A DNA stretch of 48,831 bases, from assembly GCA_017445025.1 (NCBI GenBank), contig JAFSVJ010000017.1:1-48831 (forward strand). The letters run 5' to 3'. Under the pieces are notes generated by a model that made no database searches, had not been told where the DNA came from, and saw only the letters and a program-made list of their open reading frames with translations. Each line of letters begins with the position of its first letter. Positions within the stretch are counted from its first letter, which is position 1. Made by a program: the position numbers and the translations under genes. Shown piece after piece: positions 44,456-47,826 of this stretch. The DNA comes from Abditibacteriota bacterium (GTDB lineage: Bacteria > Armatimonadota > UBA5829).

Positions 44456-44794
44456 TTACAGAGCATCTTCTCCGTGTTCTTCGGTTCTTATACGAATACA
44501 GTCCACGATATCAGATATAAATATCTTTCCGTCTCCTACTTCACCTGTTTGAGCCTTTTCTATAATTATGCTTGTGATTTTTTTCAAATCTTCGTCTTTA
44601 ACAACGAGAGTAAACATAATCTTAGGGAGCATGTTAATGATAACCATCTGTCCTCTAATCTCATCAGTATATCCTTTTTGGTTACCGCAACCCATAACTT
44701 GACTTATGGTTAGTCCACCTACTTCTTGCTCAAGGAAAGCGTTCTTTAGCGGTTCCAACATTTCGGGTCTGACAATAGCTTCAATTTTTTTCAT
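44456..44794 (-). CDS. glnB: P-II family nitrogen regulatory protein
   Basis: 112 residues from the ATG at 44794 (TTAGGAGTTTAAT); the longer frame overlaps amtB. KKIEAIVRPEMLEPLKNAF start, T-loop region NQKGYTDEIRGQMVIINMLP, and C-terminal signature TGEVGDGKIFISDIVDCIRI ending RTEEHGEDAL. P-II binds ATP/ADP and 2-oxoglutarate and blocks AmtB when nitrogen is plentiful. Position 51, the uridylylated Tyr of enteric GlnB/GlnK, is Val, so control must be by ligands alone. It follows amtB by 25 bp in the usual amtB-glnK arrangement. Confidence 0.95.
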   Translation of the reverse strand: MKKIEAIVRPEMLEPLKNAFLEQEVGGLTISQVMGCGNQKGYTDEIRGQMVIINMLPKIMFTLVVKDEDLKKITSIIIEKAQTGEVGDGKIFISDIVDCIRIRTEEHGEDAL

Positions 44795-44819: not shown

Positions 44820-46061
44820 TTAATCCAATCCCAAGAATGATGGGTAAGCAGATTCTCCGTGTTCGGAAACATCCAGTCCGTTATCTTCGTTCTTTTCGCT
44901 AACCCTAATAGGTCTACAAACACTCATTACTTTTAGAATTATGAATGTCATAACTCCGGATAACAGAATACTTACAATTATGCTAAATATTTGAACAAGT
45001 ATCAGTTTGTAATCTCCGAAGAACAATCCGTTATACATAATATCCGGATTAATGGTTTTTGTTGCAAATAATCCTGTCACGATGCCACCATAAATTCCGC
45101 CTACACCGTGACAACCGAAGGCGTCTAAGGCATCGTCATATTGGAAACGTCTCTTAATATGTCCTATTGCCAAATAACAAATAGGGCTTACGAATAATCC
45201 TATCAAAAAACTTGACCAAATGGGAACAAATCCCGCACCGGGTGTTATGGCAACAAGTCCCAAAACAGCACCTGTGGCACTACCTAACAATGTCACTTTT
45301 CCACGACGAACTTTTTCAATAAACATCCAGCTTAACATGGCTACAGCCGCACTTGTGCTTGTGGTGATAAAGGCGTGACAAGCAAGTTCGTTAGCACCGA
45401 GAGCACTACCTGCATTAAATCCAATCCAACCAAACCATAAGAGAGCTGCTCCAAGAAGAACAAAGGGAATATTATGAGGATTGTAGCTAAGCATACCGTG
45501 TCCTCTTCTCTTTCCCACAACCAGACAAGCTGTAAGTCCCGCAATACCTGAGGAAATGTGAACAACGTTTCCTCCTGCAAAGTCCAAGCTTCCGATCATT
45601 TTCAGGAAACCGCCTTCTCCCCAAACCATGTGTGCCAAAGGATAATATACCAAAAACAGCCAAAATACTATAAATAAGAATAAAGCACTGAATTTCATTC
45701 TTCCCATAACGGATCCTGTAATAATAGCACAAGTAATAAGTGAAAACATCATTTGAAAAAGCACAAATGAAGTTTCCGGAATTGTGCTTGAGTATGCAGG
45801 GTTAGGGTCAGTATTAATATTCATTAAGAAACAATTCTTTAGTGAACCTATTATTCCGTGAAAATCTCCTGTAAAGGATAGGGAATATCCTACCGCAATC
45901 CACAAAGCAGTTGCCAGTCCGCATATAAAGAATGAGGACAGCATTGTGTTGATAACGTTTTTTCTGCGGACCATACCTCCGTAGAAAAATGCCAGTCCCG
46001 GTGTCATGATAAATACCATGGCACTTGCAATCAGGACAAACGCAGTGTCACCTGTATTCAT
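44820..46061 (-). CDS. amtB: Ammonium transporter
   Basis: 413 residues, eleven TM helices. The twin pore histidines are H168 (FAGGNVVHISSGIAGL) and H318 (DAFGCHGVGGIYGG), with GIGFNAGSALGAN-type central motif as WIGFNAGSALGANELACHAF. No signal peptide; the outer N-terminus is short. It conducts ammonia/ammonium across the inner membrane and is gated by the P-II protein encoded next. ATG 46061 has GGAGGTAAAAA. Its leader (46062-46167) holds two terminators and two small hairpins. Confidence 0.96.
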   Translation of the reverse strand: MNTGDTAFVLIASAMVFIMTPGLAFFYGGMVRRKNVINTMLSSFFICGLATALWIAVGYSLSFTGDFHGIIGSLKNCFLMNINTDPNPAYSSTIPETSFVLFQMMFSLITCAIITGSVMGRMKFSALFLFIVFWLFLVYYPLAHMVWGEGGFLKMIGSLDFAGGNVVHISSGIAGLTACLVVGKRRGHGMLSYNPHNIPFVLLGAALLWFGWIGFNAGSALGANELACHAFITTSTSAAVAMLSWMFIEKVRRGKVTLLGSATGAVLGLVAITPGAGFVPIWSSFLIGLFVSPICYLAIGHIKRRFQYDDALDAFGCHGVGGIYGGIVTGLFATKTINPDIMYNGLFFGDYKLILVQIFSIIVSILLSGVMTFIILKVMSVCRPIRVSEKNEDNGLDVSEHGESAYPSFLGLD

Positions 46062-46081
46062 TTTTTACCTCCAAAAAAAAA

Positions 46082-46161
46082 GAGCTTTAGATTTAAAAAA
46101 CCTAAAGCTCCTTTGCTTTAAAAAAATAAGACACCGATAGTGTATTATCAGCGTCTTTGCT
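46082..46161 (-). promoter_or_regulatory. amtB leader: tandem terminators overlapping two A1/G4 hexaloop hairpins (candidate ANTAR target)
   Basis: On minus, in order: hairpin P1 AGC-AAAGAC-GCT (46161-46150); terminator 1 AAGACGCTGATA-ATACAC-TATCGGTGTCTT (46157-46128) with T-run; hairpin P2 TAAAGC-AAAGGA-GCTTTA (46120-46103); terminator 2 GAGCTTTAG / CTAAAGCTC (46110-46082) with T9. Each hairpin shares bases with the 5' arm of the following terminator, so they exclude each other. Both loops are hexamers with A at 1 and G at 4, the loop rule known for ANTAR target RNAs. P1 has only three base pairs. Terminator pairing is seen directly; ANTAR binding is inferred. Confidence 0.65.
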
Positions 46162-46173
46162 TTTTACACTTAT

Positions 46174-46203
46174 ATTATACTACTTTTCAAAACCCTTTGT
46201 CAA
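46174..46203 (-). promoter_or_regulatory. Promoter of amtB-glnB
   Basis: On minus: TTGACA (46203-46198), an 18-bp spacer and TATAAT (46179-46174). The start would be near 46167, just before hairpin P1. Confidence 0.75.
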
Positions 46204-46289: not shown

Positions 46290-47249
46290 ATGAATCAAAC
46301 GGAAAAAGATGTTTTGACATTTGTAAATGAGAACGATGTAAAGTTTATCAGACTTGCCTTTTGTGATTTAAAAGGAAATATGAAAAACATTTCTATTATG
46401 CCTAATGAATTGGAAAATGCCTTTGATAGGGGAATAGCCGTTAAAGGTAATTATATATTTGATACAGAAGAGGAGATTGACCTATTCTTGTTTCCCGATG
46501 CCGCTACATTACATATTCTTCCCTGGCGTCCTCAAGAAGGAAGAGTTATGAGGCTTTTCTGTTATATAAAGGAGAGAGAAGGAAACATTTCTCCTTTTGA
46601 TTGTCGCCATATATTAAAGGAAAAAATATCAGTTATAGATGATTTGGGATTAAAAATAAAAGTAGGTTTTGAATGTCCATTTGCTTTATACAATTCAAGA
46701 GAAGAGAAAATTCCCATTGATTTTGCCACTTATTTGGATGTGGCTCCTTTTGATAAGGGTGAGAATATAAGAAGAGAAATTTGTTTGTCTATGGAGAAGA
46801 TGGGAATATATCCAAAGGGTAGTTTTCACCAAAAAGCTCCGGGACAAAATGAAATAGATTTTGAAAGCGATCTTGACAGTGCTTGTGATAATTTTGTGGT
46901 TTTTAAAAATCTTATTTATGTAATTGCTTGGAGAAGCGGTCTTTATGCGGACCTTGAAGAAGAACCTTTTGTTCTTAATATAGAGATAGAAAATGAATAC
47001 ATCAAAAAGCAGTTTAAGAAAGATTCTTTGAATATGTTTAAGAAATTGATAAATAATACTTTGAAAGAGGTTGATAAATATAGCCTTGATGTTGCCTATC
47101 TTGACAAGAAATTAACCATAAAAACTTCTTTTGATTATAATATAAATATATTTATGGTATTACCCTTGATTTTATCTTGCTGTATAGATATTATAAAACA
47201 AAGGTCACCTCAAGAAAGAAAGAAAAGGTCCGGAAAATCATCTGATTAA
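46290..47249 (+). CDS. Catalytically degenerate glutamine synthetase paralogue
   Basis: 319 residues against about 440 for GSI. The beta-grasp part is clear (VKFIRLAFCDLKGNMKNISI), then FLFPDAATLHILPWRPQEGR and IPIDFATYLDVAPFDKGENI, with APGQNEIDFESDLDSACDNF. Active-site motifs are lost: ExEFF is ECPF (second Glu is Pro130), HHE is H180-Q181-K182 following Phe179, and the FMPKP loop is DLEEEP. The C-terminal third no longer resembles GS, and the ATP/adenylylation region is absent. It probably binds but does not make glutamine, a possible nitrogen sensor for the ANTAR protein encoded 19 bp downstream. Confidence 0.85.
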   Translation: MNQTEKDVLTFVNENDVKFIRLAFCDLKGNMKNISIMPNELENAFDRGIAVKGNYIFDTEEEIDLFLFPDAATLHILPWRPQEGRVMRLFCYIKEREGNISPFDCRHILKEKISVIDDLGLKIKVGFECPFALYNSREEKIPIDFATYLDVAPFDKGENIRREICLSMEKMGIYPKGSFHQKAPGQNEIDFESDLDSACDNFVVFKNLIYVIAWRSGLYADLEEEPFVLNIEIENEYIKKQFKKDSLNMFKKLINNTLKEVDKYSLDVAYLDKKLTIKTSFDYNINIFMVLPLILSCCIDIIKQRSPQERKKRSGKSSD

Positions 47250-47268: not shown

Positions 47269-47826
47269 ATGAGTAATGCTGTTATAATTTCTCAAAATCA
47301 AGATCTTATAAATCATTTGAGAGAGTTTTTTCTTGATAATTCCATAGAAGAAATATGTGTATGTGATTCCGGGGATAAGGCAAGAAAAGTTTTTCAAGAT
47401 AAGGATTTTGATTATATCTTTATAGACAGAGAGGGTAAATCTGAAGAGGAGTTTGCTATTGATTACAGTGGTAATTATATGTGCCAGGTAATTATCTTTG
47501 TGGAAGAAGATATGTTTGAATATATAGTTGACCAAATGTCCGAATATGGAATTATTACAATAGAGAAGCCTTTGGATTTAAGATTCTTGCAATTGTGTTA
47601 TAAACTCTCTGTTGCTTTTCAAAATAGGTTTATAAAAATTGAAAATGAGAACAAAAAATTATTAAGTAAAATAGAAGAAATAAAACTGGTTAATAAGGCC
47701 AAGGCCCATTTAATCAAGAAATATAAAATCTCAGAAGAAGATGCTCATAAATTAATTGAGCATCAAGCAATGAACTTGCGTAAAACCAAGGCTCAAATCG
47801 CAAATATAATTCTAAACGATAAGTAA
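47269..47826 (+). CDS. ANTAR-domain RNA-binding regulator with pseudo-receiver
   Basis: 185 residues. The N-terminal domain (1-115) has a receiver fold: DYIFIDREG keeps Asp53 and IEKPLD keeps the Lys, but the acidic pair is ISQNQ and the Thr/Ser strand is IIFVEED, so phosphorylation is doubtful. A coiled coil (120-140) leads to an ANTAR domain (about 135-184): LLSKIEEIKLVNKAKAHLIK, KYKISEEDAHKLIEHQAMNL, RKTKAQIANIIL. ANTAR dimers bind paired hexaloop hairpins and prevent termination, mostly in nitrogen genes. Likely target: the amtB leader 1.1 kb away. The same GS-plus-ANTAR gene order is known in clostridia (glnA-nitR). Confidence 0.9.
   Translation: MSNAVIISQNQDLINHLREFFLDNSIEEICVCDSGDKARKVFQDKDFDYIFIDREGKSEEEFAIDYSGNYMCQVIIFVEEDMFEYIVDQMSEYGIITIEKPLDLRFLQLCYKLSVAFQNRFIKIENENKKLLSKIEEIKLVNKAKAHLIKKYKISEEDAHKLIEHQAMNLRKTKAQIANIILNDK

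Follow-up and report, generated by a model that had tools for sequence, protein, structure and literature searches.

In the EutV-controlled eut antiterminators of E. faecalis, two hairpins 5-12 nt apart serve one terminator, and a linker of 14 nt cripples induction (PMC3369931). The hexaloops carry A at position 1 and G at position 4; part of the antitermination hairpin is also used by the terminator as its 5' arm, and the upstream hairpin overlaps no terminator. It has since been shown that a EutV dimer is unable to contact the two hairpins of a single RNA at once. The minimal ANTAR site was redefined as one hexaloop, and the natural reach of single-hexaloop sites was left open, their use being expected in settings free of a race with RNA polymerase (PMC8934654). 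ANTAR target RNAs have also been reported before ammonium transporter, P-II, glutamine synthase and glutamate synthase genes, and Desulfotomaculum acetoxidans carries several ANTAR attenuators per transcription unit (PMC3369931). In the AmiC-AmiR (PMC8934654) and NasS-NasT (PMC3795266) systems, the ANTAR protein is held by a sensor of metabolic or uptake origin.

We analyzed a 48,831-nt stretch of DNA from an Abditibacteriota bacterium (contig JAFSVJ010000017.1; hereafter the window). On its minus strand lies amtB (44820-46061), encoding an ammonium transporter of 413 aa (PF00909, E 7.6e-122; TIGR00836 above cut-off) and presumably co-transcribed with a gene for a glnB-like P-II regulator (44456-44794, minus strand; PF00543, E 2e-26). 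Divergent from amtB, on the plus strand, are a gene for a degenerate glutamine synthetase (GS) of 319 aa (46290-47249) and, starting 19 nt beyond it, a gene for an ANTAR protein of 185 aa with a receiver-like N-terminal half (47269-47826; PF03861, 43.5 bits against a curated cut-off of 27.3). A preliminary description of this DNA had placed an ANTAR gene at this position, correctly so; it is the sole ANTAR match in the assembly and lies 1.1 kb from the amtB leader.

The leader itself (46062-46203) is read on the minus strand, and all of its elements were found as first described: promoter, hairpin P1, terminator T1, hairpin P2, terminator T2, ribosome-binding site and the amtB ATG at 46061. 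The promoter is of the sigma-A type (TTGACA-18-TATAAT, 46174-46203, with the -35 box at 46203-46198 and the -10 box at 46179-46174) and matches the consensus at 12 of 12 positions. P1 (AGC-AAAGAC-GCT, 46150-46161) starts 12 nt past the -10 box and presents A1, G4 and a C-G closing pair. The intrinsic terminator T1 (46120-46157) consists of a 12-bp stem (46157-46128) followed by ATTTTTTT, the U tract, with a folding energy of -15.4 kcal/mol. P2, (TT)TAAAGC-AAAGGA-GCTTTA(GG) (46101-46122), has its core at 46120-46103 and can be extended to 8 bp. It is followed by the intrinsic terminator T2 (46073-46114), with a 17-bp stem (46114-46078), a T run forming the U tract and an energy of -17.2 kcal/mol. 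The ribosome-binding site, GGAGG (46068-46072), was read directly from the sequence. A terminator scan of the leader returned T1 and T2 and no others, where 0.1 would be expected in shuffles.

Both hairpins follow the hexaloop rule of ANTAR targets (A at 1, G at 4, stem of at least 3 bp), and each shares bases with a detected intrinsic terminator: the loop and 3' arm of P1 overlap the 5' arm of T1, and those of P2 the 5' arm of T2. Because hairpin and terminator use the same bases, P1 and T1, and likewise P2 and T2, are mutually exclusive. Folding, which had been proposed as a check, recovered both pairs of alternatives and bore out the claimed competition: both terminators win in free RNA, the whole leader folding at -38.4 kcal/mol (z -7.7), while isolated P1 folds at -2.2 kcal/mol and P2 at -5.9. 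The earlier judgment that P1 is weak stands insofar as only three Watson-Crick pairs adjoin its loop; however, a GUGUA close to the start of the transcript can form pairs with the UACAC beneath the P1 hexaloop, giving -5.7 kcal/mol when the first 31 nt only are folded. This extra pairing is available until the 3' arm of T1 has been transcribed and softens the weakness of the three pairs.

Such an arrangement is rare by chance. Among 2000 dinucleotide shuffles of the leader, one hexaloop/terminator module appeared in 2 and two modules in none, and the pattern GCAAAGNNGC-N5-35-GCAAAGNNGC occurs a single time in the assembly, in the amtB leader. When the double-GCAAAGNNGC pattern was run over 61 genomes, the matches mostly looked like coding-region chance. 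A pattern of -10 box plus hexaloop gave six matches (five sites) in the organism's own genome; a terminator accompanied the one at amtB alone, and no further target emerged. Inspection of the leader left no room upstream of P1 for a further hexaloop and revealed no leader peptide ORF. The suggested covariance-model search was negative in that no Rfam model matched the window at gathering score; the sub-threshold matches in the leader (PyrR, rli60 and others) have the appearance of chance matches to hairpins rich in A/T.

The leader resembles the EutV-dependent eut antiterminators (PMC3369931, PMC8934654) in its A1/G4 hexaloops, in antitermination hairpins that share bases with the terminator 5' arm and in its association with nitrogen-related genes. 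Unlike eut, it has a terminator for each hairpin and P1 stands at the transcript start. The hexaloops of P1 and P2 are 44 nt apart, and the linker measures 29 nt between the full stems or 32 nt between the 3-bp stems. A scan of ANTAR and amtB loci for dual hairpins with linkers of up to 20 nt found none, and this led to the idea that a single hexaloop might be the unit.

Relatives were reached through the degenerate GS. Used as a query, this protein found contigs bearing a full-length GS beside an ANTAR gene, two of them from Lachnospiraceae, and AmtB searches around those genomes yielded 78 amtB upstream regions, the window's included. Using a caller built for this analysis, we defined a module as a C-G-closed R1/G4 hexaloop overlapping the 5' arm of a terminator. 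Comparison of leaders in relatives, another check proposed in the preliminary description, was empty for the assembly's own kin, whose amtB leaders (L036-L064) contained no module, so that the comparison was gained only via the clostridial genomes reached through the GS-ANTAR pair. There the hairpin recurred: at least one module was present in 53 of the 78 leaders, mostly as a lone C-AAAGRN-G hairpin overlapping one terminator, although the genomes reached are related and leader counts are not independent events. A second hexaloop upstream at a short linker, as in eut, accompanied the module in only five of these 53 (L159, L160, L172, L307 and L308). In 24 distinct leaders, the glnA leaders of L032 and L034 among them, the hairpin starts 7-22 nt past a promoter-like -10 box. 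No more than some 15 nt of RNA then precede it, into which a recruitment hairpin cannot fit; in the eut-like leaders with a recognized promoter, the corresponding distance is 34-53 nt. Relatives of this kind, in which a lone hexaloop is paired with a lone terminator, point to one hexaloop per terminator as the unit. The stems of the window also have counterparts, the AGC..GCT form of P1 in L117, L291 and L299, and the P2 stem AAAGC-AAAGG.-GCTTT in the amtB leaders L116 and L308. Two further features of these leaders were seen. Three of them (L152, L157 and L173) have in common the sequence TTCCGGAAGANGTT, about 30-45 nt upstream of the hexaloop at the position of a recruitment hairpin, which forms no A1/G4 hexaloop; and in the eut-like duals L159, L160, L307 and L308 one or both loops start with G rather than A (GAAGGC, GATGAT, GATGAC).

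The hexaloop was far commoner at terminators of these leaders than at the control terminators. An R1/G4, C-G-closed hexaloop with at least 4 bp was found at 38 of 74 terminators in the amtB leaders. The other strand of those stretches gave 1 of 42, and the window outside the leader 0 of 20. When the loop was left unrestricted, 44 of 60 distinct terminator hexaloops were R1/G4, against an expectation of about one eighth with even base use, and 38 of the 44 were A1/G4; this enrichment has to be read with the caveat that an A-rich loop followed by G is partly a demand of A-tract terminators. Covariation of the stem is a separate matter: the terminator does not include the hairpin's 5' arm, so covariation of this arm speaks for the hairpin itself. 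We counted 82 cells changed on both sides, compared with 29.5 in shuffles, and none of 500 shuffles reached 82; sliding the stem partner by one to three columns destroyed the signal. Stem pairs 1-3 belonged to the selection of hairpins, whereas pairs 4 and 5 did not, and these unselected pairs formed in 47/57 and 36/57 cases, versus shuffled means of 27 and 22. With both terminators detected by scan and the covarying hairpin recurring in clostridial amtB leaders, the claim that each hairpin overlaps a terminator of its own was borne out.

The preliminary description had called this double overlap unusual. No account of it was found in the literature available to us, but about eight leaders besides that of the window have two modules in series (L153, L166, L168, L170, L269, L290, L291 and L299), the status of L304 and L117 being less certain. 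L269 (from G316) and L153 (G303) consist of a promoter, two modules with hexaloops 48 and 94 nt apart, respectively, a ribosome-binding site and a P-II-like gene; in the other six, two modules 63-217 nt apart lie upstream of amtB. In those six, AGC-AAAGGN-GCT is the usual form of the first hairpin, and the second is usually closed by CAC or TAC on one side and GTG or GTA on the other, a difference that hints at separate roles for the two sites. A strict tandem pattern, run over 391 genomes of G062's class, gave 15 matches, barely above the reversed control and none with hairpins and terminators in place; it would miss true tandem leaders because their loops and spacings vary.

These data bear on how the two hairpins of the window work together. 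We consider it probable that the amtB-glnB leader comprises two tandem single-hexaloop ANTAR attenuators in series. Sequence, folding and comparison show the elements themselves, their mutual exclusion, a hairpin that is conserved and covaries, a P1 so near the start that no hexaloop fits ahead of it, and tandems in other leaders. The reading departs from the original proposal, in which one ANTAR dimer held both hairpins. A version of that proposal is a canonical dual-hexaloop target with a long linker, whereby P1 would recruit the dimer, P2 would antiterminate and T1 would be an extra stop within the linker, all served by one complex. The nearly identical A1/G4 loops of P1 and P2 would suit such a target, as would the canonical duals that precede amtB in the five leaders listed above. 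We nevertheless regard it as unlikely. The linker of 29-32 nt far exceeds the 5-12 nt of eut, where 14 nt is already crippling for eutP (PMC3369931), and an addition of 20 nt abolishes antitermination in vitro (PMC8934654). The spacing between loops in tandem leaders ranges from 44 to 217 nt, which argues for independent modules, and many leaders have one hexaloop only. The structure of the EutV dimer likewise speaks against one dimer holding both hairpins (PMC8934654).

The gene neighborhood provides a candidate for the protein that would bind P1 and P2. The ANTAR protein of the window aligns with EutV, Rv1626 and AmiR. Of the EutV residues that contact RNA, the alignment, numbered with the help of PMC8934654, retains K143, K147 and M172 and replaces Y164 with His, a residue also found at this position in AmiR and in clostridial homologues. 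As read from the alignment, its receiver-like half has an Asp where the third strand ends and lacks the acidic pair after the first; like the pseudo-receiver of AmiR, it is apparently unfit for phosphorylation. The neighboring 46290-47249 product fails as a complete GS enzyme. Its GS match covers residues 1-227 only and falls far under the GlnA cut-off. Compared with the full-length GS of L032, L033 and L034, it has lost Glu and His at metal-site positions, reads GFECPF for GVEFEF and FHQ for HHE, and has neither the GSGMH segment with its catalytic His nor the NRSQLIR active-site loop; the catalytic positions are assigned from the general features of GS. The reading frame is preserved and the C-terminal helix, though diverged, is still present, and the assembly has a separate GS match, a 702-aa open frame (C120). 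This shortened, in-frame GS may be a pseudoenzyme sensor partner of the ANTAR protein. One genome that had seemed to share it, G007, was dropped, as its GS is full length and split over two contigs. As in AmiC-AmiR (PMC8934654) and NasS-NasT (PMC3795266), the ANTAR gene thus stands beside a candidate binder of a nitrogen metabolite; unlike in those systems, the neighbor is a degenerate GS, a putative partner by gene position. The window's AmtB matches some clostridial AmtB proteins at up to 65%, compared with up to 55% for those of its kin; the contig may be native, horizontally acquired or mis-binned. At the contig end (48475-48831), a pilin-like protein runs off the sequence; this pilin type is common outside Clostridia, which does not fit well with amtB and ANTAR genes of clostridial appearance.

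ANTAR genes also accompany the hairpin elsewhere. They lie upstream of amtB within about 1 kb on G313:C18, G280:C1, G338:C233, G334:C29 and G309:C30, and directly upstream in the first three, and an ANTAR match is present in 25 of 27 hairpin-bearing genomes (the exceptions being G253 and G268). It is present in 5 of 7 genomes without the hairpin as well; ANTAR presence thus separates the two groups poorly and is weak as evidence. Together with our indirect assignment of P1 and P2 to an ANTAR protein, this leaves some room for a reading in which the hairpins answer another RNA-binding factor, a translating ribosome or a small molecule. We hold this to be quite improbable, as the A1/G4 loop rule is that of ANTAR targets (PMC3369931) and the leader offers neither a peptide ORF nor an Rfam riboswitch match. 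Moreover, in L032 and L034, where the GS-ANTAR pair is divergent from gltB, the same module occupies both leaders between them: in either direction, glnA or gltB, a sigma-A promoter is followed by one A1/G4 hexaloop near the start and one overlapping terminator. Least credible of all is that P1 and P2 are functionless by-products of two plain back-to-back terminators, for although A-tract terminators with a U tract naturally yield AAAGG at the stem base and P1 has just 3 bp, covariation ties the 3' arm of the hairpin to an upstream arm that the terminator does not include, terminators elsewhere do without the hairpin, and a full-consensus promoter running into two immediate stops would silence the gene without regulation.

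Control of amtB-glnB by ANTAR antitermination, as originally suggested, is likely. From the loop rule (PMC3369931), the retained K143, K147 and M172, the gene neighborhood and the ANTAR matches in hairpin-bearing genomes, we infer binding by the 47269-47826 protein. The direction of control, nitrogen as the signal and a steeper response are inferred as well. With two attenuators in series, T1 would stop most transcripts when no active ANTAR protein is present, and T2 most of the remainder. When nitrogen is short, the ANTAR protein would bind P1, at the transcript's extreme 5' end, as this hairpin emerges from RNA polymerase, and T1 would be blocked; the same or a second ANTAR dimer would act likewise at P2, and the polymerase would reach amtB. 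Two serial stops would give a tighter off state and a steeper response.

More tentatively, and with somewhat less than even confidence, these leaders may represent a class of ANTAR antiterminator with a single hexaloop at the transcript 5' end and no recruitment hairpin, an element so far regarded as obligatory, used singly or serially on amtB, glnA and gltB, and here with a dead, shortened GS as sensor partner. That loss of the upstream hairpin abolishes induction in E. faecalis (PMC3369931) counts against antitermination by a single hexaloop. The nitrogen-gene ANTAR RNAs reported previously, those of D. acetoxidans included, share with these leaders the target genes, the loop rule and the occurrence of more than one attenuator per unit; they were found with a dual-hairpin covariance model, and the text available to us mentions neither single-hexaloop modules nor two modules placed back to back in a leader (PMC3369931). 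No description of a single-hexaloop 5'-end attenuator or of its tandem form was found in the literature available to us, and subscription papers on the clostridial ANTAR protein NitR may contain an earlier one.

The leaders described here look like natural single-hexaloop attenuators operating in the very race with RNA polymerase. Dozens of them, with one module, with two or with a dual hexaloop, are at hand for comparison, and they allow the recruitment-hairpin model to be tested directly. Searches built on a dual-hairpin model would overlook single-hexaloop modules, so that clostridial ANTAR regulons for nitrogen assimilation have probably been under-counted.
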